Origin: Bacteroidota bacterium
GTDB lineage: Bacteria; Bacteroidota; Bacteroidia; UKL13-3
Direction: 5' to 3'
NCBI GenBank assembly: GCA_027488905.1
Contig: JAIYAT010000035.1
Span: forward strand, 186,001-250,000
Length of the DNA: 64,000 nt
Part shown: piece by piece, positions 1,885-15,577 of the stretch
How positions within the stretch are numbered: position 1 is the stretch's first letter
Layout: each line of letters begins with the position of its first letter
The notes under the pieces: generated by a model
The model's database searches: none
Seen by the model: the letters and a program-made list of their open reading frames with translations, nothing else
What the model was told of the DNA's origin: nothing
Made by a program: the position numbers and the translations under genes

Positions 1885-1894
1885 GGTTCAAACC
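1885..1894 (+). repeat. Interspersed motif copy 1 (GGTTCAAACC)
   Basis: An exact copy in context TTTTGGTTCAAACCGAACC. On the minus strand it supplies the TGA stop codon of the asparaginase gene (GTT TGA). A weaker relative, GTTTGAACCAAA, lies at 1801-1812 in the same gap. Confidence 0.8.
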
Positions 1895-2949
1895 GAACCT
1901 AAATTTTTGAGATACTCCTCCCATGGTTTAAAAACCGCTTCATTTACCTTCATTTCTCCGCTTACTAACTTGTTGAAATTGTGGATAGAGAACTGCTCAT
2001 AATGTGCTATTTTTTGCAGAGCATCATCTGCGAATAAGTTTGTATTTCTTATCAAATGTTGGGCAACATTGTATTGTGGCTGCATTTTGCCATCGTCTAT
2101 TTTGATGCAAACGCCCAGCTTTAGGGATTGAATCCCTAAGCAGAAAATACCCTCTGCACCAGTTTTACCAATAATTTCTGGCGCACAAACTTCCATCATA
2201 TCAGTGCAATATCTTCCGCTACCTGCCACCATAAAAGGGTTTGCGCTTATGGCGTCTATCAAGTATTTACAAGCATTTTGTCTTTTCTCTTCAAACTTAG
2301 TGGGATAAATTAAATTCCTAAAACAAAGAGCTTGGTTATAAACGGGAATACTGTAAATAGGCGCTGTGCAGCCATCTAAAGCCGTTGTCATTTCTGCGCG
2401 TGGGTACTCATAAAAGGCTTCAACATAATCTAAAATGAGTTGCTGAATGGGATGTTGTGGATTTAAATAATCCTCGGTTTCATATCCCAATAACTTACAC
2501 AAAGCAAGCATACCGGCATGTTTGCCGCTGCAATTGTTATGAATATGATGTGGTTTCAGGTTGTTTTTAATTAAGTTATTTGCATCTTTTTTGCTGCTTG
2601 GATATTGTGCCCCACAATTTAAATAGGATTCGTCTAAGCCAATTTTAGCCAATATACTTTTTACTTCAATTAGATGCGCCTCTTCTGCATTGTGCGAACC
2701 ACACATCACAGCAATTTCTGAGGGAGTGAACCCAAATTTCTCCAAACCTCCCAGTTCTATTAAGGGTAGGGCTTGAACAAATTTCATGGCAGAGCGTGGG
2801 TAACACATTTGCATGGGATTGCCTAGGCTAAACACAATGTCGCCAAATTCATCTACCACACAAACTGCGCCTCTATGAAAACTTTCTAAAATACCTGCTC
2901 TATATACTTCTACTAAGATGGGATTGCTTTGATTTTCGTCTGAATACAT
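1888..2949 (-). CDS. L-asparaginase, Rhizobium etli type (Asparaginase_II family)
   Basis: The predicted 353-residue cytoplasmic enzyme hydrolyses L-asparagine to aspartate and ammonia. It belongs to the beta-lactamase-like asparaginase family known from R. etli, not to the bacterial AnsA/AnsB type. The family's catalytic and metal-binding residues are all visible: the SxxK pair at S53/K56 (RSAMKF), C140 and K143 in CSGKHAG, D192 and C194 in DGCTAP, and C258 in SGRYC. These are known in the R. etli enzyme as Ser48/Lys51, the Cys135/Lys138/Cys189 zinc site and Asp187. There is no signal peptide. The ATG at 2947-2949 is preceded only 4 bp upstream by a TATTTTCG element (minus strand of 2954-2961), so the transcript may be leaderless. 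It stands alone between gyrB and the divergent A-B-C-D cassette. Confidence 0.9.
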   Translation of the reverse strand: MYSDENQSNPILVEVYRAGILESFHRGAVCVVDEFGDIVFSLGNPMQMCYPRSAMKFVQALPLIELGGLEKFGFTPSEIAVMCGSHNAEEAHLIEVKSILAKIGLDESYLNCGAQYPSSKKDANNLIKNNLKPHHIHNNCSGKHAGMLALCKLLGYETEDYLNPQHPIQQLILDYVEAFYEYPRAEMTTALDGCTAPIYSIPVYNQALCFRNLIYPTKFEEKRQNACKYLIDAISANPFMVAGSGRYCTDMMEVCAPEIIGKTGAEGIFCLGIQSLKLGVCIKIDDGKMQPQYNVAQHLIRNTNLFADDALQKIAHYEQFSIHNFNKLVSGEMKVNEAVFKPWEEYLKNLGSV

Positions 2950-3068: not shown

Positions 3069-3494
3069 ATGTTTAAAATAGGCTTCGCTTTATTTGTTGT
3101 TTTGATATTGGCCTCCTGCGGATATGGATGGGATTCTGTTTACGGCTATTCTGCAGAAGAATATACCCATATGATTAAGCCTATGGACAATTTAACAATC
3201 ATAAAATCTATAGAATATCCAGAAGCCTCAAAGCTAATAACATATGATTCTGCCGGGGCGCAAAGGTTACTTGTTTCAGCCTATGCAAATACACTAGTTA
3301 AAATAACTACCAATAAAGGTGTATTTGAATTGTTGTTAAATCCAAATGTTACGAACTACTCAGACCCTTCTGCAATTTCCTACTCAGGGTATAGCATCTT
3401 AAATCATAATTTTAATGAATATATAAAAACACCAATAATTAAAAAAAAATACGATTATACTTGGTTATGTTCAGATACTCTATATTTTAAATGA
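3069..3494 (+). CDS. Cassette protein A: short lipoprotein of unknown function
   Basis: I do not recognise a family. The 141-residue product has a lipoprotein signal (LFVVLILASC, Cys at about residue 17) followed by a Tyr/Gly/Ser-rich linker and a compact soluble domain. It is homologous to A' at 6259-6711: both share the patterns H-(M/Y)-IKP-x-D, a (T/E)TNKG-x5-L-x-P block and the C-terminal (S/T)DTL-x-FK ending. It is the first gene of a four-gene unit and overlaps the next gene by 4 bp (ATGA at 3491-3494), which implies translational coupling. Export to the outer membrane or periplasm is inferred from the lipobox. Confidence 0.8.
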   Translation: MFKIGFALFVVLILASCGYGWDSVYGYSAEEYTHMIKPMDNLTIIKSIEYPEASKLITYDSAGAQRLLVSAYANTLVKITTNKGVFELLLNPNVTNYSDPSAISYSGYSILNHNFNEYIKTPIIKKKYDYTWLCSDTLYFK

Positions 3495-4171
3495 AGCAGT
3501 CTATTATAGCTTTCCTAACTATCGTTTTCGGTTTGAACCAAACCTTCGGACAGGTCTTTTTATCAGAAAGGCCTCAAAAGTTTATTGGGGCAGTACTTAC
3601 AACGGATGCTGGTAAACCCATAGAACTTAGATTCGCTTATTTAAGGCCAAGTGGTATAGGAGGTTTTCAATTTAAAGTATCGCCTGGATATAAAAGAGTA
3701 GATTTATTTACTGGAATAAACATTTATTCAGACTACTATGCAAATGGCTTAGGTGAAGTTAAAACCACTAAGGAGTTGAAATTCTTTTTCATGGAACCAG
3801 GAGTTTTATTTTTAACAAGTAAAAGTGAGTTTAAACGAACTTTTTTCGCTATAAACTTTCCGATGGGATTCAGCAAAATGAAAATTTATAAGCAATTTTT
3901 CAATGACCCTGTCTTTGACAATCAAACGAAGGTTGAATTCGACCCCAATATCAAAATGAATTATTCAGCTGAAATAGAGTTTTTATGGGCCTTTAACTTA
4001 AGTAATAAATCATTTCTAGAAACAGGTGTTTCTTTTACTTTACCGATTAAAAGTCAAGAATTGTTTGGTGCCTCTGGAACAAAAATAAACTATAACAATT
4101 ATATTCCAGGAGCTACTACTTTTCCTTTTTTGAATATCAGTTGCTCTTATAATTTTGCTCTACCAGAATGA
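3491..4171 (+). CDS. Cassette protein B: secreted, probable outer-membrane beta-barrel protein
   Basis: The 226-residue protein has a cleavable signal peptide ending in TFGQ and then alternating hydrophobic/polar stretches rich in Gly and aromatics, ending in SCSYNFALPE. This looks like a small outer-membrane barrel. It is homologous to B' (6708-7367): shared segments include DDGKPIE/DAGKPIE followed by an R-x-x-YL strand, the FxEPGxxL strand, the NFPxG strand, and the PGAxxFPFxN block near the C-terminus. The start overlaps gene A and the stop overlaps gene C (both ATGA). The signal-peptide coding region carries an exact GGTTTGAACC copy read as Gly-Leu-Asn; B' carries one at the same place. 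No known family was recognised. Confidence 0.8.
   Translation: MKQSIIAFLTIVFGLNQTFGQVFLSERPQKFIGAVLTTDAGKPIELRFAYLRPSGIGGFQFKVSPGYKRVDLFTGINIYSDYYANGLGEVKTTKELKFFFMEPGVLFLTSKSEFKRTFFAINFPMGFSKMKIYKQFFNDPVFDNQTKVEFDPNIKMNYSAEIEFLWAFNLSNKSFLETGVSFTLPIKSQELFGASGTKINYNNYIPGATTFPFLNISCSYNFALPE
3530..3539 (+). repeat. Interspersed motif copy 2 (GGTTTGAACC)
   Basis: Context TTTCGGTTTGAACCAAACC, inside the signal-peptide region of cassette gene B, read GGT TTG AAC (Gly-Leu-Asn). Confidence 0.8.
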
Positions 4172-4695
4172 TTAAGAAACTTTTTGTAATAGCATTTTTA
4201 TGTGCGATTCATTTAATGGTTTTGGGCCAAACTAACACAAATCTTGTTAGATCCTCTTTTAAGAAGACCTATACTATCAGACAAGGTAACAATGTTTTTG
4301 TACAACACATTACAGATGCGCCAGGTGAGGTACGGAAACTTAGAATATTAGATTTAAACGATTCGTTTATCACTTTGCGCCAAGACCAACATACAGCCTT
4401 GATTTTTCCAATTTCGGAAATAAGTGGCTTTTGGATTATCAATGGGAAGGCAAAGGTTAAAATGTTTGCAAAAACCACAGTTGGTTTAGCTTGGTTTATT
4501 GTAGGTTTGAGCCTATTTATTGTTTTAGTTGATGATGGAGAAGGCTATTTTAATCCATATTTCCTCAATCAAATGGCACATGTGGCAGCAGCAGCAGGTG
4601 GAATTTACATGGTTCTAAGCTCAAATGCCAAATCCAATGCTTCCAAGATAGATTTACAACGAGACAACATCATTTTTATAGGCAATGCAAGGTAA
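4168..4695 (+). CDS. Cassette protein C: signal-peptide protein with two membrane segments
   Basis: The 175-residue protein starts with a signal peptide ending in VLGQ, followed by a small domain with the segment VFVQHITDAPG and a strand-rich stretch (RILDLNDSFITLR, then EISGFW). This is the most conserved part in its paralogue C' (7364-7885), which has VYVQHITDAPG and NEISGFW. The C-terminal half has two hydrophobic segments at about residues 104-120 and 130-150. The pattern 'short ligand-like strand domain plus membrane hairpin' is seen directly; the function is unknown. It overlaps gene B by 4 bp and gene D by 11 bp. Confidence 0.8.
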   Translation: MIKKLFVIAFLCAIHLMVLGQTNTNLVRSSFKKTYTIRQGNNVFVQHITDAPGEVRKLRILDLNDSFITLRQDQHTALIFPISEISGFWIINGKAKVKMFAKTTVGLAWFIVGLSLFIVLVDDGEGYFNPYFLNQMAHVAAAAGGIYMVLSSNAKSNASKIDLQRDNIIFIGNAR

Positions 4696-5224
4696 AATAC
4701 TACTTCTAGTTTTGATGCTTAGTATTAGCCAAGTTAAGGCGCAATTGGGTAAAGTTCCTCACGCAACATTTTATAATAAGCTTAATGGAAAGAATGCACA
4801 ATTAGGATTCAATAAAAATTACTACATAAAATTAAAGCCAAGTGCAATTGATAAATTATACAATTTTAAAATTGAAAGTGGCAATCACGCTTATCTTAGA
4901 TTAATTAACCAAATAGGAGATACCCTAGTTTTTAATGAGGGTAAACTGCTTGCAAATGACATAGAAAAACTATTTAGTTCTAATACCGCAACAGGCTGGT
5001 ATGTTTCTATGGCGCTTACTATTTATGTGCCTTTTCTAGTTACCTATACATATATTCAGCCAGATGATAAGGTTATTATGGCAATTTTCTTTCCGCCAGC
5101 ATTAATAATTACTAATAGCCTTTTAGCTGCTTACCAAAGAAAGCAAATTCAGGTAATGCAGTATGAATTAATCCCCCAAAATATTTTGGGAAAAGAGCCA
5201 AAAAAGAGATGGTACCAGTTTTGA
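4685..5224 (+). CDS. Cassette protein D: signal-peptide protein with membrane hairpin
   Basis: The 179-residue product starts inside the end of gene C (ATG at 4685, 11-bp overlap). It has a signal peptide ending in VKAQ, a globular part with the segment NQIGDTLVFNEGKL, a hydrophobic hairpin at about residues 105-147, and a conserved C-terminal block YELIPQNILGKEPKK. Its paralogue D' (7882-8409) keeps NQIGDTLIFEEGKL and the YELIPQNIxGKxPxK ending almost unchanged, so these are likely functional. No known family was recognised. It is the last gene of the first cassette copy. Confidence 0.8.
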   Translation: MQGKILLLVLMLSISQVKAQLGKVPHATFYNKLNGKNAQLGFNKNYYIKLKPSAIDKLYNFKIESGNHAYLRLINQIGDTLVFNEGKLLANDIEKLFSSNTATGWYVSMALTIYVPFLVTYTYIQPDDKVIMAIFFPPALIITNSLLAAYQRKQIQVMQYELIPQNILGKEPKKRWYQF

Positions 5225-5301
5225 GTGAGCACTTTTTTAATTCTAAGTTTCTAGCTAAATTATTTACTTTCGATTTACTTTAAAATCTTTAGCCGTTTAA
5301 A

Positions 5302-6225
5302 ATGAAATCTAAAATTAGCTACCCAATTAAAGCTCCTCTTATTTTTCTATTTGTGTTTAATGTATTGGTGGCTAAAATCAACGCCCAAGATCAACTATTT
5401 TTGATTGGGCATTTAGAAGTAGTTTTAATTAAGGTTATAGAGATAAAAAAGAATGAGGTAGCTTTTAAATATTGGCCGATAGAAGAGAACCCTGAAATTA
5501 GGATTGAGCCAAAATCTAGCATACATAAAATAATATTTGAAAGCGGAAGTATCTTTATTTTTAATGATGTGTTATTGCCAAAACAAGTTTTGCAATATGA
5601 GCAAAGAAGAACAGCAATAAAAATAAAACCACTTGCAATTTTAAATAGTGCAATTTCACTTTCTGTAGAACATTTAATCAGGCCTAGGCTAAGTTTTGAG
5701 GGGAGTATTTGTTACCTAGGTCTTGGTGACTATGAAAGTCGAAACTTATATTTCAATAGTATTATTTCAGTAAAAGGTGGTTTTATTAAGGCAGGTGTAA
5801 AACTCATTGATACACCTAAAAAAAGTAAGAAAGTTAATCGGTATATGCATGTTTTAAAAGGAGCTTATTTTAAGCCAGAATTGGTATACCTTAATCATAC
5901 CAATATCTATTCGGATGGTTTTGGTTTTCAGAGTACAGCTGTAGAAGTTAACTATTCAGGTGCTGGTCTTTTCCTGAATTTTGGAAGGCAATGGGTGTTT
6001 AATGACAATTTTTTAATCGACATTTATCTAGGCCCTGGATTGGGTTATAAAAATGTAAATAAAATCCCTTCAATAATGACAACGAATATAAAGGTAGATT
6101 TAGATGTCTTTGATTCGGGTGGTTTTGGGTTTATAGAATTATCGGAAACGCCAGGAGTTGCTATACCATGTTTCCAAAGTGGGTTCAAAATAGGTTTCTT
6201 GATAGGAAAAAAAAGTAACAAATAA
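5302..6225 (+). CDS. Predicted outer-membrane beta-barrel protein between the two cassette copies
   Basis: The 307-residue protein has a signal peptide ending in INAQ. Next comes a short strand-rich domain (about 30-110) of a type common in Bacteroidota envelope proteins: a regulatory-looking repeat in which a polypeptide 'key' is followed by KIIFESGSIFIF. The C-terminal part (about 110-305) has alternating strands with many aromatic residues, consistent with an 8- to 10-stranded barrel. It has no counterpart in the duplicated units but sits exactly between them. It has its own upstream gap of 77 bp, with a TACTTTCG element at 5265-5272. Its function is unknown. Confidence 0.75.
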   Translation: MKSKISYPIKAPLIFLFVFNVLVAKINAQDQLFLIGHLEVVLIKVIEIKKNEVAFKYWPIEENPEIRIEPKSSIHKIIFESGSIFIFNDVLLPKQVLQYEQRRTAIKIKPLAILNSAISLSVEHLIRPRLSFEGSICYLGLGDYESRNLYFNSIISVKGGFIKAGVKLIDTPKKSKKVNRYMHVLKGAYFKPELVYLNHTNIYSDGFGFQSTAVEVNYSGAGLFLNFGRQWVFNDNFLIDIYLGPGLGYKNVNKIPSIMTTNIKVDLDVFDSGGFGFIELSETPGVAIPCFQSGFKIGFLIGKKSNK

Positions 6226-6239
6226 TTTAAATTGATTTA

Positions 6240-6247
6240 TATATTTG
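6240..6247 (+). promoter_or_regulatory. Possible -7 element (TATATTTG) of the second cassette copy
   Basis: TATATTTG matches TAnnTTTG exactly and ends 11 bp before the ATG of gene A', implying a leader of only a few bases. I see no good TTTG at the expected -33 position. Confidence 0.4.
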
Positions 6248-6258
6248 ATTAAACCATC

Positions 6259-6711
6259 ATGAAAATGAATAAAGTTTATTTAGTATTAATTCTGATTCAA
6301 TTTTATTCTTGTGGTAGTGGTGATGATTACTACAGCTATAATAACTATTATAAAAGGTATGGCTATTTACATTACATTAAACCTTCAGATACTGCTATTC
6401 AAATTTCAAAAATCCATTATGTAGGTGCTAATAGGGTGGATAATGTAAGCATTAATCATAATATTCCTTTGTTTGTTTCATTGTTTGAGAATACCCACAT
6501 CATCATTGAAACCAATAAAGGAAGTTACTATGCAATTTTGCAACCCAAAACTGATTACCGAACAGGCCAAAATTATGACCCAGGTACACAGAATATTTAT
6601 ACTGTGAAGGAAAGCAATTTCAATAAGCATAGCATTACAAATTTTGTATTAACTAAAATTGATTCAGCCAAAGGGTACTTTTTTGCAACTGATACCTTGC
6701 TATTTAAATGA
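6259..6711 (+). CDS. Cassette protein A': lipoprotein, paralogue of 3069-3494
   Basis: The 150-residue lipoprotein has a signal of the form LILIQFYSC and then a Gly/Asp/Tyr/Asn-rich linker. The body matches protein A: HYIKPSDTAIQISKI against HMIKPMDNLTIIKSI, ETNKG against TTNKG, and TDTLLFK against SDTLYFK at the C-terminus. ATG at 6259 or 6265 are both possible. It overlaps B' by 4 bp (ATGA), as in the first copy. The divergence between A and A' (roughly 30% identical by eye) means the duplication is old. Confidence 0.8.
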   Translation: MKMNKVYLVLILIQFYSCGSGDDYYSYNNYYKRYGYLHYIKPSDTAIQISKIHYVGANRVDNVSINHNIPLFVSLFENTHIIIETNKGSYYAILQPKTDYRTGQNYDPGTQNIYTVKESNFNKHSITNFVLTKIDSAKGYFFATDTLLFK

Positions 6712-7367
6712 AGTACTTGGTTTACATACTTTTGTTGTTTTTTGGTTTGAACCAAACTAAGGCACAGGTTTTTTTAATTAAAGAACCGCAACATTGCATA
6801 GGAATAGGTTTTGTATCTGACGATGGCAAACCGATTGAATTTCGTTATACGTATTTAAAGAAAAATGGGCCAATTAGTTTTCAACTAAAAGCGGCAAAAG
6901 GCTTTAAAAACATCTCTATTAAGTATGGTCCATATGAAGAAATCTTGTTCGGAGGAAGTTTAACAAGTACTAAAAGAATAAGCTTTTGGGTTTTTGAGCC
7001 TGGTATTATGCTTCATTTGGGGAATAAGAACTTTAAAAGGAGTTTTATAGCGGTTAATTTTCCTGTTGGCTTAGGCAAGGTTAAAACCTTTAATCAATTT
7101 AAGGATGACCCAGTTTATGGAAATAGTTTAATAACTCAAGCTGACCCAAAAACTTACTTAAATTATTCCTTGGAATTTGAACTTATATGGTCCTTTAACC
7201 TCATGAAAAAATCATTTTTGGACTTGGGTTTTTCAATTGGCATTCCTATAAAGTCTTATGAGGTATTTCCAGGTTCAGAGCCAAAGTATTATCAATATGT
7301 ACCAGGAGCCAATGTGTTTCCTTTTGTAAACATGTGCGTCTCATACAATTTTAGTTTAAGTAAATGA
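6708..7367 (+). CDS. Cassette protein B': probable outer-membrane beta-barrel, paralogue of 3491-4171
   Basis: The 219-residue protein has a signal peptide ending in TKAQ and the same strand blocks as B (SDDGKPIEFRY, the VFEPGIML strand, AVNFPVG, and PGANVFPFVN near the end). The mature N-terminus begins QVFL in both copies. It carries an exact GGTTTGAACC in the signal peptide, at the same position as B. Start and stop both overlap neighbours by 4 bp. Confidence 0.8.
   Translation: MKYLVYILLLFFGLNQTKAQVFLIKEPQHCIGIGFVSDDGKPIEFRYTYLKKNGPISFQLKAAKGFKNISIKYGPYEEILFGGSLTSTKRISFWVFEPGIMLHLGNKNFKRSFIAVNFPVGLGKVKTFNQFKDDPVYGNSLITQADPKTYLNYSLEFELIWSFNLMKKSFLDLGFSIGIPIKSYEVFPGSEPKYYQYVPGANVFPFVNMCVSYNFSLSK
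6744..6753 (+). repeat. Interspersed motif copy 3 (GGTTTGAACC)
   Basis: Context TTTTTTGGTTTGAACCAAAC, in the signal-peptide region of gene B', read Gly-Leu-Asn; positionally equivalent to copy 2. Confidence 0.8.
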
Positions 7368-7885
7368 GAAAAAGAATAATTTTACTTGGAGCGTTTTTGC
7401 TACTTATACTTCAACTAGGGTTGGGTCAAACCAAATCTATAAACGGAAACTTTGTTTATAAACCAACCCATAAATTAAAAAGTGGAATGAGTGTGTATGT
7501 GCAGCATATTACTGATGCGCCAGGGATAAAAAATCAATATAGACTCATTGATTTAAATGATTCCAACGTAACTTTAAAGTCAAGGGATAATTCAATTTTA
7601 GTTTTACAGAACAATGAAATTTCTGGGTTTTGGTACGTTAACTATAAAACAAAAATCACCACTGGACTGAAAATTTCTGGAGGTGTTTTGTTTTTTATAC
7701 TCACTATTCCGTATTTATCTAGTGAATTGTATGTTGGAGCAAGTGTTGCGGAAATATTAGTAACCTATGCCCTAACATTAACCTTGGCAGCACCTTCTGC
7801 AATATTTTTTGCTACTTCAGAAAACAAATATTCGGCTATTAAGCTAAATTTAAACGGCGATAATATTAAGTTCAAGAAGAAATGA
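7364..7885 (+). CDS. Cassette protein C': membrane-hairpin protein, paralogue of 4168-4695
   Basis: The 173-residue protein keeps the signal peptide (ending GLGQ), the VYVQHITDAPG segment, a LIDLNDSNVTLK strand, NNEISGFWYV and two C-terminal hydrophobic segments. The end of the protein (LNLNGDNIKF) mirrors LQRDNIIFIG in C. A one-mismatch relative of the interspersed motif (GGGTCAAACC, 7423-7432) lies in the signal-peptide codons, where C has the related GGGCCAAAC. It overlaps B' and D' by 4 bp each. Confidence 0.8.
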   Translation: MRKRIILLGAFLLLILQLGLGQTKSINGNFVYKPTHKLKSGMSVYVQHITDAPGIKNQYRLIDLNDSNVTLKSRDNSILVLQNNEISGFWYVNYKTKITTGLKISGGVLFFILTIPYLSSELYVGASVAEILVTYALTLTLAAPSAIFFATSENKYSAIKLNLNGDNIKFKKK

Positions 7886-8409
7886 AAAGTGCAACACTAG
7901 TTGTTTTCTTGTTCATTATGCCTTTGCTATTATTAGCGCAACTTGGGGCAGGAGCAAAGGTGAGTTTTTATATGCCAATTCTTGGGAAACATTTAGAGCT
8001 TAAGGTTAACAAGACCTATTATTTCAGTTTAAACCAAAAGGGCATGCAAAAACTATCGTTGCCAATTGGCGAAAGTCGACATAGGTTTATGAAAATAACT
8101 AATCAAATAGGAGACACCCTCATTTTTGAAGAAGGAAAGTTATTTAAAGAAGATTTAGATTCAGTACTCTATGTAAATCCCAAAAGGTATTGGTTTGTTG
8201 TAGCAGCGGGATATGCTTATGTACCATTTACTATAACCTATACTTACCTATTGCCAGAGGTTAAAGAATATTTATACTTATTAGTGCCTCCAATTACTGC
8301 AATACCTTATATCTTGTTATCAAGAGTGAAGAAAAAGTTTATTAACCTAAAGGATTACGAATTAATACCACAAAATATTCATGGTAAACCGCCTCAAAAG
8401 GGATGGTAG
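7882..8409 (+). CDS. Cassette protein D': membrane-hairpin protein, paralogue of 4685-5224
   Basis: The 175-residue protein has a signal peptide ending in LLAQ, the shared block NQIGDTLIFEEGKL, a hydrophobic hairpin at about residues 105-145 and the C-terminal YELIPQNIHGKPP. It ends the second cassette copy and converges on the yciO-like gene 13 bp away, so the two units must be terminated within a very short space. Function unknown. Confidence 0.8.
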   Translation: MKSATLVVFLFIMPLLLLAQLGAGAKVSFYMPILGKHLELKVNKTYYFSLNQKGMQKLSLPIGESRHRFMKITNQIGDTLIFEEGKLFKEDLDSVLYVNPKRYWFVVAAGYAYVPFTITYTYLLPEVKEYLYLLVPPITAIPYILLSRVKKKFINLKDYELIPQNIHGKPPQKGW

Positions 8410-8422
8410 TTTTTCTAATAGA

Positions 8423-9034
8423 TTAGGCGAGTATCCCTTTACCTTCTCTAATCACCTCAATTTCGTCTGTAGTGCAATTTACAATAGTAGAAGGGATATT
8501 TCCGCCAGCTCCACCATCGATAACCATGTCTACTTGGCGTTCAAACTTTTCATGAATTTCTTCTGGGTCTGTCATGTACTCAATTATTTCATCCTCGTGA
8601 TGTATGGTAGTAACAACTAAGGGTTGACCCAATTCTTTGATGAGGGTTTGGGCAATCACATTATCTGGAACGCGAATCCCTATCGTTTTTTTATTGCCTC
8701 CAAAGTATTTGCCTACTTGGTTGTTGGCATTTAATATAAAAGTAAAGGCTCCAGGAAGACTTGCTTTCAGGAGCCTAAATACATTTTTATCTATGTGTGA
8801 AGTGTAATCAGATATGGAGGATAAATCTGCACACAATAAAGAATAGTTTACCTTTTCAATTCGCTTACCAGACAATTTACTCATGCGTTCGATGGCTTTC
8901 TTGCTTTCAAGTTTACAAGCCATTGCATAGATAGTATCTGTTGGCAAAATTATTACCCCATCCTTGTTCAAAACCTCAATCACTTTTTTTATGTCACGAG
9001 GATTAGGATTATCAGGATGTAAGGTAAGTAACAT
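8423..9034 (-). CDS. Sua5/YciO/YrdC-family protein (YciO-like)
   Basis: The 203-residue protein has the fold of threonylcarbamoyl-AMP synthase, with the P-TDT-IYAM motif at about residue 32 and a SLPGAFTFIL segment. Its length, the KVNYSLLCADLSSISDY region and the GIRVPDN motif fit the YciO branch better than the true TsaC/Sua5 enzymes that make t6A37 in tRNA; YciO proteins have weak or unclear activity. The gene starts 1 bp after the stop of sucC and is therefore almost certainly co-transcribed with it. Confidence 0.85.
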   Translation of the reverse strand: MLLTLHPDNPNPRDIKKVIEVLNKDGVIILPTDTIYAMACKLESKKAIERMSKLSGKRIEKVNYSLLCADLSSISDYTSHIDKNVFRLLKASLPGAFTFILNANNQVGKYFGGNKKTIGIRVPDNVIAQTLIKELGQPLVVTTIHHEDEIIEYMTDPEEIHEKFERQVDMVIDGGAGGNIPSTIVNCTTDEIEVIREGKGILA

Positions 9035-13470: not shown

Positions 13471-14427
13471 TTGAAAAAGTCTGCATCCTTAATAAACTAT
13501 GTGTTATTGCCAGCTTTTGGACTGTTCTTACTTTGGCTAAGCCTTAAAGGAACTGATTTTAAAGAGATAAAGCAGGTACTGATTTCAGGTAATTATTGGA
13601 TAATGATTCCAGTATTAATTGTGTCAATTTTGGTTTACATTTTTAGGGTTGCTCGTTGGAAAATATTGTATAAAGGAATTCACCTAGAGGCAAAGCCAAA
13701 TGTACTTTTTGCTGCATTGGCAACAGGCTATTTGGTAAATTTTGCAATCCCACGATTAGGCGAATTAACTAGAGCAGTAATATTAAAACGACAACAGAAT
13801 TTTCAAGTAAACCATAGCTTATCTACAATTGTCTTTGAGCGAATAATCGACGTACTATGTTTAATGCTCATCATTATGGTAGCTTTTCTTGCAGAACTCG
13901 GAAAAGCAGAATCAATTTTCAAGCATTTTACAGAAAATGTAGATTGGTTCAACCCGAAAAAAATAATCTTTGTTGGTGCTGCACTAATAATAGGAAGCTT
14001 AGTTTTATTAGCCTTGCGCAAGTATAAAACTCAAATAGGCGAGTGGGTTCAAACCATTATAGAGAATATGTTTGTGCTTCTAAAAATGAAAGGTAAAGCT
14101 GGATTTTTAATCTATACGCTTTTTATTTGGATTGGCTTTTATCTAATGACATATCTATGGTTCTTTATGTTTGAAAGCTCTTCAAAACTATCAGCTTACG
14201 ATGCCTTTATTGTAATGGTTTTGGGTGTTATTGCCAGAACACTCCCAATACAAGCGGGCTCTGCGGGTGCCTATCATTATGTGGTTAGTAGCGCCTTAGT
14301 TTTAATGGGTTTGAACCTAGCAACTGGTAATGCTTTAGCCATAGTGATACATGGTTTTCAAACAGTCTTCACCATTATTTTTGGCTTTTCTGCTTACCTT
14401 TGGCTACTCAATCAAAAAAATGAATAA
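13471..14427 (+). CDS. UPF0104 / lysylphosphatidylglycerol-synthase-like transmembrane protein (flippase-like domain)
   Basis: The 318-residue polytopic membrane protein has about eight hydrophobic segments and the family's RVARWKIL motif at about 62, a GxLVNFxIPRLGE(L/I)TRA loop (about 88-108), an FERIIDVLCL segment and a C-terminal GSAGAYHYV. These mark the PF03706 domain shared with the membrane half of MprF. A role in lipid or lipid-linked substrate translocation is an inference. The start is TTG at 13471, 4 bp after the upstream stop: the ATG at 13466 is out of frame and stops after two codons. The stop overlaps the next gene by 8 bp. It contains two exact motif copies. Confidence 0.85.
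   Translation: MKKSASLINYVLLPAFGLFLLWLSLKGTDFKEIKQVLISGNYWIMIPVLIVSILVYIFRVARWKILYKGIHLEAKPNVLFAALATGYLVNFAIPRLGELTRAVILKRQQNFQVNHSLSTIVFERIIDVLCLMLIIMVAFLAELGKAESIFKHFTENVDWFNPKKIIFVGAALIIGSLVLLALRKYKTQIGEWVQTIIENMFVLLKMKGKAGFLIYTLFIWIGFYLMTYLWFFMFESSSKLSAYDAFIVMVLGVIARTLPIQAGSAGAYHYVVSSALVLMGLNLATGNALAIVIHGFQTVFTIIFGFSAYLWLLNQKNE
14046..14055 (+). repeat. Interspersed motif copy 5 (GGTTCAAACC)
   Basis: Context GAGTGGGTTCAAACCATTA in the flippase-like gene; read Val-Gln-Thr (WVQTI). Confidence 0.75.
14308..14317 (+). repeat. Interspersed motif copy 6 (GGTTTGAACC)
   Basis: Context AATGGGTTTGAACCTAGC in the same gene; read Gly-Leu-Asn (MGLNLA). Confidence 0.75.
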
Positions 14428-15577
14428 ACTAAACTATATTTTCTTCTTGGTTTTCGGTTTGAACCTAAGTACAGTTGCTGCTCAGAACTTCCCTAAACTA
14501 GGAAACGACACCTTATTGGATGTGGCTTGTTGGAATGTAGAATGGTTTGGTGATACAGGCAATGGCCCTAGTGATGAAACAACACAATTTAACAATGTAA
14601 AAGCCTTATTAGAAAAAACAGAATTTGACATCTTGGGCTTGTGCGAAATAAGTAATTTAACTAGTTACAACAATCTAAGCACGCAGCTTTCAAGTAAATA
14701 TGAAACTTATATATCTACCTTTTCTGCCACGCAGAAAATGGCTTTATATTGGCGTAAAAGCATGTTTGATGTGATTGGTTTTGAAACACTCAATATACTT
14801 GCTACCGAGAATTTTACTTTCGCATCAAGACCGCCCTTACAGGTTTGCCTTAAAACAAAAACAGGTAATAAAATAGATACCATATACTTTATTGTAGTTC
14901 ATTTAAAAGCCATTGCCGACCAAGATTCATATAACCGAAGAAAGGCAGCTTCTGCTTTGCTTAAAACTTACGTAGAAACTACACTAAAAGATAAAAAATA
15001 TATTATTTTGGGTGATTGGAATGACGACTTAGACGCCTCCACTTATCAGTCGGCAGAAACGCCATTTAAGAATTTCTTAGATGCTAAATATACCTTTCCA
15101 AGTAAGGAGTTAACCGATGCTGGAAAATCCAGTTATGCCTTTAATACCAATATGATTGACCATATTATGAATAGCAAAACCTTGGATTCTTTTTATTTAA
15201 AAGGTTCTGCAAAGGTGTTTGATAATGCTGCCACATACGCTACAAACTTTAGCAATACCACCTCAGACCATTGGCCTGTGTATGCCTTTTATGATTGGAA
15301 AAAGCTTACTACTTTAACAATACCAATTGGAAATGAAAGTTATGAAAAGCTAGCTGAAGTAAAAGCATGGCCAAACCCATTTAGTAATGAAATTACCATT
15401 CAATTAAGTGCTGCTGGATTTGAAGTGCAAGTTTTTAATATAAATGGAAAAAAGTTGTATGAGGTATTTACAACACAAACAGAAAAGACTATAAATACAG
15501 AAGATTTTCCCTCAGGCGTATATTTTATAAGTGTAAATAAGAAAGGCCAAACTTTTCATGCCAAAATGATTAAGTAA
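14420..15577 (+). CDS. Secreted endonuclease/exonuclease/phosphatase-family protein with T9SS sorting domain
   Basis: The 385-residue product starts at ATG 14420; an earlier in-frame ATG at 14351 would bury the signal peptide (MNKLNYIFFLVFGLNLSTVAAQ, cleaved near 22). The mature protein shows EEP-fold motifs: CWNVEWFG (about 40), GLCEI (about 78), VVHLKA (about 165), LGDWND (about 200) and SDHWPV (about 288), with the catalytic Asp/Asn/His set visible. This suggests a secreted nuclease or phosphodiesterase. The last about 75 residues are a type A T9SS sorting domain (AWPNPFSNEITIQL, then INGKKLYE, then FPSGVYFISV). It overlaps the preceding gene by 8 bp. Confidence 0.88.
   Translation: MNKLNYIFFLVFGLNLSTVAAQNFPKLGNDTLLDVACWNVEWFGDTGNGPSDETTQFNNVKALLEKTEFDILGLCEISNLTSYNNLSTQLSSKYETYISTFSATQKMALYWRKSMFDVIGFETLNILATENFTFASRPPLQVCLKTKTGNKIDTIYFIVVHLKAIADQDSYNRRKAASALLKTYVETTLKDKKYIILGDWNDDLDASTYQSAETPFKNFLDAKYTFPSKELTDAGKSSYAFNTNMIDHIMNSKTLDSFYLKGSAKVFDNAATYATNFSNTTSDHWPVYAFYDWKKLTTLTIPIGNESYEKLAEVKAWPNPFSNEITIQLSAAGFEVQVFNINGKKLYEVFTTQTEKTINTEDFPSGVYFISVNKKGQTFHAKMIK
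14456..14465 (+). repeat. Interspersed motif copy 7 (GGTTTGAACC)
   Basis: Context TTTTCGGTTTGAACCTAAG in the signal-peptide region of the secreted EEP-family protein; read Gly-Leu-Asn. Confidence 0.75.

Follow-up and report, generated by a model that had tools for sequence, protein, structure and literature searches.

The window analysed here was a stretch of 64,000 nucleotides from a Bacteroidota bacterium (contig JAIYAT010000035.1), and its positions 3069-8409 were found to carry a cassette of nine co-directional genes in the order A1 B1 C1 D1 E A2 B2 C2 D2. The core of this cassette is a pair of adjacent genes, one for a lipoprotein (A) and one for a predicted outer-membrane beta-barrel (B), which are nearly inseparable and diverge jointly. 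It was proposed, tentatively and at a little below an even chance, that the cassette is a modular envelope island in which A and B form a barrel-surface-lipoprotein complex with a role in recognition or adhesion. This reading makes A-B a lineage-restricted version of the complexes of this kind that are typical of Bacteroidota. The anatomy of the island was well supported, and the function is inferred.

The pairing of the genes was counted across the order (64 genomes, all of one family) by using profile matches at E ≤ 1e-6. The rows counted were 33 of 35 for A, 37 of 46 for B, 18 of 23 for D and 15 of 30 for C, and the weaker rows were excluded. B was located within 50 bp of A in 32 of the 33 cases, and the remaining A had a B according to its open reading frames (ORFs). 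Conversely, an A was located within 50 bp of 32 of the 37 B genes. Two of the other five B genes had an A by ORF, one started 141 bp into its contig and was directly preceded by the final part of an A (E 4e-4), another was overlapped by 4 bp by an unrecognised lipoprotein ORF, and the match of the last one was a 72-position fragment. The distances among A proteins followed those among B proteins over 27 pairs (Mantel r 0.897, with 0 of 5000 permutations as high), and the A and B trees placed most units alike.

The AlphaFold2 model of B1 (6 sequences) contained eight strands, with a predicted local distance difference test (pLDDT) score of 77 and a predicted template modelling (pTM) score of 0.70. 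The model was aligned with the N-terminal domain of OprF (4rlc; Z 14.7, root-mean-square deviation 2.5, 134 residues aligned) and with OmpA (1qjp; Z 14.6), and it matched OmpX with a Foldseek E of 1.2e-4. The signal peptide and the eight modelled strands would assign B1 to the class of 8-stranded outer-membrane barrels, and B was modelled as the same barrel as those of the OmpA transmembrane domain, the OprF N-domain, OmpX/Ail and OmpW, although the identity to 4rlc and 1qjp was 6-9%. Unlike OmpA, B carries no C-terminal peptidoglycan-binding domain, since the barrel fills the 226-aa protein after the signal peptide. No Pfam match to this domain was obtained at E ≤ 0.01 in 28 B members, which gave one Pfam match in all (E 0.0098). 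B also differs from the OmpA/OprF-type barrels in being encoded beside a lipoprotein gene.

The most conserved columns of B included D139 (28/28), F192 (28/28) and P206 (27/28). With the topology read as in OmpA, these residues are placed by the model in the extracellular loops L3 and L4 and possibly form a docking face. The mean column entropy over the 28 proteins was 2.35 for the strands, 2.46 for L1, 2.54 for L2, 1.82 for L3 and 2.19 for L4. When B1 was compared with its counterpart in genome G009, 14 of 24 residues were retained in L4 and 106 of 134 in the strands, so that L4 as a whole was less conserved. The idea of hypervariable loops of the Opa kind thus met with a mixed result.

We proposed that B would sit in the outer membrane and hold A on the outside through the conserved residues of L3 and L4, and that A together with the loops of B would recognise or bind an external target, serving adhesion, recognition or shielding. 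Because an 8-stranded barrel is without a wide pore, bulk transport would be unlikely. C and D might be anchored in the inner membrane by their hairpins, with the small beta domain in the periplasm, and might act from there to hold the A-B pair or to help in its assembly. At one favoured spot the island would have gone through repeated rounds of duplication, trimming and divergence, and the copies in the window would be such a pair. A bolder version, in which E-A-B-C-D is an undescribed trans-envelope recognition apparatus, with A on B linked via the periplasm to the inner-membrane hairpin proteins and with tandem copies acting as separate specificities (e.g., kin, predator or phage), was judged improbable.

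Acid-rich starts after the cysteine mark lipoprotein surface export in Bacteroidota, according to passages of two reports (PMC5080379, PMC12578637). At least two acidic residues were present among the six residues after the cysteine in 15 of 27 A proteins and in 11 of 41 control ORFs with a lipobox, the wrong cysteine having been taken for L063 in this comparison. A, which has a lipobox, is probably surface-exposed.

Several observations weigh against the proposed complex. The correlation between A and B is due partly to shared ancestry. A1 contains one acid only in the six residues after its cysteine, and the acids of A lie further from the cysteine than those of the tested Capnocytophaga signal, as given in an excerpt of PMC5080379. 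At the five of the nine weaker B loci that were read (L101-L105), no A was recognised beside the matching barrels, and three of the clusters resemble E-type barrels; hence, the profile of B picks up other barrels as well. The structure models of B and D were built from 6 sequences each. C and D were missing beside most A-B pairs, since D was present within 2.5 kb of 17 of the 37 B genes and C of 14, and 20 of the 37 had no D within this distance, a few of them being near contig ends; the partnership of C/D with A-B is therefore weak. Finally, positive selection was considered and rejected: the ratio of nonsynonymous to synonymous substitution rates (dN/dS) was lower than 1 in every computable comparison, so no sign of positive selection was seen at the gene level.

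All nine genes of the cassette are on the + strand. A1 (3069..3494) encodes a lipoprotein of 141 aa with ASC followed by GYGWDS, and its ortholog in G009 was 68% identical. B1 (3491..4171) encodes the barrel modelled above. C1 (4168..4695; 175 aa) appears from its sequence to consist of a signal peptide, a small beta domain with the VQHITDAPG motif and a membrane hairpin. D1 (4685..5224; 179 aa) is predicted by its model to contain a signal peptide, a small beta domain with NQIGDTL, a transmembrane hairpin and a YELIPQNI tail, and was 93% identical to the G009 ortholog. Gene E (5302..6225) encodes a secreted protein of 307 aa, whose sequence suggests an N-terminal segment and a barrel-like C-terminal part. 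In the second copy, A2 (6259..6711) encodes a lipoprotein of 150 aa with YSC followed by GSGDDY, and B2 (6708..7367), placed by identity to B1 and by its tree, encodes a predicted outer-membrane barrel of 219 aa. C2 (7364..7885; 173 aa) and D2 (7882..8409; 175 aa) each carry a signal peptide, a small beta domain and a membrane hairpin, the former being assigned by its identity to C1 and the latter by its identity to D1 and by its tree.

A preliminary description of this DNA had reported the A-B-C-D order twice, and this was borne out: the eight ORFs lie at the positions given there, and the copies consist of homologous pairs in identical order, with blastp E values of 1e-14 for A, 2e-64 for B, 1e-28 for C and 2e-42 for D and global identities of 35, 44, 34 and 39%, respectively, which are 12-34 standard deviations higher than for shuffled sequence. 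The junctions were exactly as described there, five of the six being 4-bp ATGA overlaps (A/B and B/C in both copies, C/D in copy 2) and the C/D junction of copy 1 being an 11-bp overlap. The retention of order and coupling was also supported. The four-gene content was correct for A to D; gene E (5302-6225) had been overlooked. It sits between the copies, 77 bp past the end of D1 and 33 bp ahead of A2. Since E precedes A in relatives, the full unit was read as E-A-B-C-D. A promoter-like pattern, TAnnTTYG, found upstream of A1, E and A2 was discarded as evidence because the window contains 128 instances of it, both strands included.

The cassette is bordered on the left by a gene on the - strand (1888..2949) that adjoins gyrB (identified by NCBIfam) and is a shared neighbour in relatives; no model matched its product, which we take from its sequence to be asparaginase-like. 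The right border, likewise a shared neighbour, is a tsaC/Sua5-type L-threonylcarbamoyladenylate synthase gene (8423..9034, - strand; TIGR00057) followed by sucC, which was recognised by its own models. The B profile was positive in 14 of the 19 genomes of the genus, with 1-3 B copies per positive genome. In 11 of the 14 genomes (G000, G001, G004, G005, G006, G007, G009, G010, G012, G014 and G017) the cassette was found beside tsaC/Sua5, and the asparaginase-like gene and gyrB also adjoined wherever the contig reached. The cassette was located at another site in G003, G013 and G015.

The content of the common site varied. It was ABCD without E in G009 and G005, ABCD-E-ABCD in the window, AB-E-ABCD in G001 and EEE-ABCD in G012, with the same arrangement up to the contig end in G010. 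The site shows the behaviour of a hot spot for insertion or expansion. The main rival explanation holds that A and B are a functional pair, while C/D and E are independent small envelope families that gather at one insertion site without being part of a common complex. It was considered rather less likely than the complex proposed above. It is favoured by loci of the same site holding E alone (EE in L110 and L111, EEE in L112 next to gyrB), by arrays of E elsewhere, by the A-B pair without C/D (AB alone in G004, G006 and G014; EE-AB in G007), by other genes filling the site in L108, L109 and L116, and by L114, where the site is empty and the Sua5 and asparaginase-like genes are 12 bp apart. 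C/D-like genes without A-B in G074, G072 and G068 point in the same direction. However, the overlapping junctions argue against such bystanders, as do the D and C genes, of which 17 of 18 and 12 of 15, respectively, were found within 2.5 kb of a B, and the A-B-C-D order that is kept at other sites (G013, G015, G067 and G034). The complete EABCD unit was present elsewhere in G013 and G015, and second A-B pairs were located at other sites in G001, G004 and G006.

These arrangements also bear on a fixed four-protein assembly in two matched variants, which had been suggested earlier. It was not supported, in view of single ABCD copies and of loci with A-B only, E only or C/D-like genes only, which indicate modules instead. 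The copies do occur separately, an ABCD of the copy-1 type standing alone in G009 and G005.

C and D were found to be diverged paralogs by profile comparison: the hhalign probability was 97.7%, or 95.8% with the signal peptides removed, when shuffled columns gave at most 0.9% in 40 trials. The model of D1 (pLDDT 71, pTM 0.54) predicted a signal helix, a beta domain, two long helices (101-124 and 129-149) and a short tail. Foldseek returned a best E of 0.37 for this model, and VIA-align gave Z 6.5 for a hairpin and Z ≤ 4.7 for Sm-like domains, values too weak for naming the fold. Cleavage of the signal peptide before a conserved Q would place the beta domain and the tail of C/D in the periplasm. 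C/D-like genes also occur in the absence of A-B, as six ORFs in a row in L160 (5891-8938, G074:C15) and as pairs in L161 (5996-6938, G072:C5) and L162 (1873-2815, G068:C302). The best C or D match of the G074 ORFs was at E ≤ 1e-7 for three and at 0.002-0.012 for the others, as measured in a small set. C/D is an unnamed family with a signal peptide, a small beta domain and a membrane hairpin.

Gene E appears, by its sequence, to encode an optional second barrel. An E-type gene was found upstream of A in G001, G007, G010, G012 and G015, and in G013 at a distance of 387 bp. E is more widespread: at E ≤ 0.001 its profile found matches in 42 of the order's 64 genomes, many of them covering the profile in part, and tandem arrays of 2-4 E-type genes were seen in G015:C96, G013:C12, G003:C9, G008:C24, G064:C22 and G076:C78. 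Six of ten relatives of E matched DUF3575 (PF12099) at E ≤ 0.01, with a best value of 5.6e-5. The protein of the window itself matched only over residues 217-257, and its score of 15.1 bits did not reach the gathering score of 21.1. Homology was not established between B and E (hhalign probability 26%) or between C and E (29%).

The trees of A, B and D each joined both copies of the window with G009 and G005 in one group (support 98/92, 100/99 and 100/99, respectively). Copy 2 was placed outside the other three in the A (100/94) and B (98/98) trees, and the G009 protein paired with D1 in the D tree (95/99). A topology joining D1 with D2 was rejected by the approximately unbiased test (p-AU 0.006), and one joining B1 with B2 was borderline (p-AU 0.061), the B tree having been seen beforehand. 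A recent duplication within the window genome is countered by the D result, the result for B being borderline. The 11-bp C/D overlap is common to copy 1, G009 and G005; it is 4 bp in copy 2, G001, G010, G012, G013 and G015, and is replaced by a 6-bp gap in G017. Copy 2 had no ortholog in G009 or G005, the two nearest species. The simplest account of these sequences would be that the duplication predates the split of the species and that copy 2 and E were later lost in G009 and G005; a gain of copy 2 by transfer from a relative is possible.

The dN/dS of copy 1 against G009 was 0.13-0.25, and for this reason the cassette genes look functional; full-length relatives of the cassette proteins were also present in other genomes. 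The seven flanking genes gave 0.01-0.15. Against G005, the values were 0.32 for A and 0.29 for B, those of C and D being not computable. Between copies 1 and 2, dN was 0.51-0.76 and dS was saturated or nearly so. The dS between copy 1 and G009 fell along the cassette (3069-5224) from 1.0 in A to 0.60 in B, 0.37 in C and 0.25 in D. The raised value of A may reflect an exchange of alleles at the 5' end or a faster local change, and that of B resembles the 0.58 of a neighbouring gene.

In the order as a whole, the B profile was positive at E ≤ 0.001 in 30 of the 64 genomes, and in 4 of the 14 genera when the better genomes were considered. In the class, B was matched in 14 of 395 genomes, eight of the same family and six outside it with marginal values (E 9e-5 to 9e-4); one of the matches within the family, G019 (L102), is probably an E-type barrel. 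A was matched in 9 of 395 genomes, two of them outside the family and marginal, and D in 11 of 395, with weak values (E 6e-6 to 6e-4) for the seven that lie outside. Just 7-9 candidates per genome were scored in the class searches, which limits the meaning of an absence outside the family, so at this sensitivity the sequences suggest that A-B is not clearly found beyond one Bacteroidota family. The carriers are uncultured Bacteroidota, apparently from fresh water; the relatives with names are metagenome-assembled genomes of Bacteroidota, and the isolate names of several suggest ponds or lakes. The window genome (3.55 Mb in 40 contigs) gave the two known copies and one further match at E 0.25 with the D profile.

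No described system among those compared fits the gene set. In Pfam and NCBIfam all nine proteins stayed below the curated cut-offs, none gave a PHROGs match at E ≤ 0.1, and PADLOC returned a single match (E 0.017), which did not qualify the genes as an anti-phage system under its models. The names of the GldKLMN/PorKLMN components were absent at E ≤ 1 from the Pfam and NCBIfam results of the nine proteins, the models presumably being contained in these libraries. The relatives of A-E in the family-model scans gave weak matches alone, the best being that of E to DUF3575, and sequence searches of the PDB with the five families A-E produced nothing convincing. Among the literature titles, none describes such a cassette, as judged by title. 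The earlier remark that no named system of this composition was known was supported for A to D, and the proposed profile searches of all eight proteins led to no well-known families.

Both SusC and BtuB belong to the large TonB-dependent transporters. The pairs SusC/SusD, BtuB/BtuG and BamG/BamH resemble A-B in the adjacency of the barrel and lipoprotein genes and, often, in an acid-rich start. To our knowledge, the barrel-surface-lipoprotein complexes described so far serve in nutrient transport or belong to the beta-barrel assembly (BAM) machine. B, with 8 strands by its model, and A, of about 150 aa, are unlike the systems with SusC, BtuB and BamG barrels, and B had no match to a SusC- or BamG-type barrel in Pfam or NCBIfam. 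According to PMC12578637, BamG is a 14-stranded FadL homologue, and Bacteroidota have barrel-surface-lipoprotein complexes as a hallmark. The size of the barrel, the partners and the protein families differ here from the described members of this broad class.

The tight A-B adjacency would also agree with a dedicated export pair, in which B, with C/D, carries A to the surface in a role like that of Slam, whose barrel gene often adjoins its lipoprotein gene. According to passages of PMC7857515, Bacteroidetes are without Slam, and the route by which their surface lipoproteins cross was open in 2020. Still, such a role was considered quite unlikely, because the same passages (PMC7857515) give Slam a predicted barrel of 14 strands and a tetratricopeptide repeat (TPR) domain, whereas B differs in size and is modelled as an 8-stranded barrel that takes up the whole mature protein and leaves it without a periplasmic domain. 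Moreover, A-B is clear in one family only, whereas surface lipoproteins are widespread in the phylum. A mobile or phage-derived origin, or an anti-phage defence unit, would match the variable occupancy of one spot and the fast divergence, but is very improbable in view of the PHROGs and PADLOC results and of the eight neighbouring proteins scanned, which include neither an integrase nor a transposase, the search for such genes having been confined to these eight.

If the proposed barrel-surface-lipoprotein complex is correct, A-B would be a minimal, essentially pore-less 8-stranded version that has expanded and diverged at a single chromosomal spot, and it would offer a simple model for the docking of surface lipoproteins on barrels and for the way in which such pairs acquire new specificities. 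Together with its stand-alone arrays, the C/D family represents a second unnamed family.

Two further observations were made. In L056 (5360-11865, G003:C113) A-B-D is repeated three times in a row, directly 3' of a gene for a multi-pass membrane protein, which we take to resemble an exosortase. At 14351-15577 the window also encodes a protein whose match to TIGR04183, a type 9 secretion sorting domain, suggests the presence of a type 9 secretion system in the organism.

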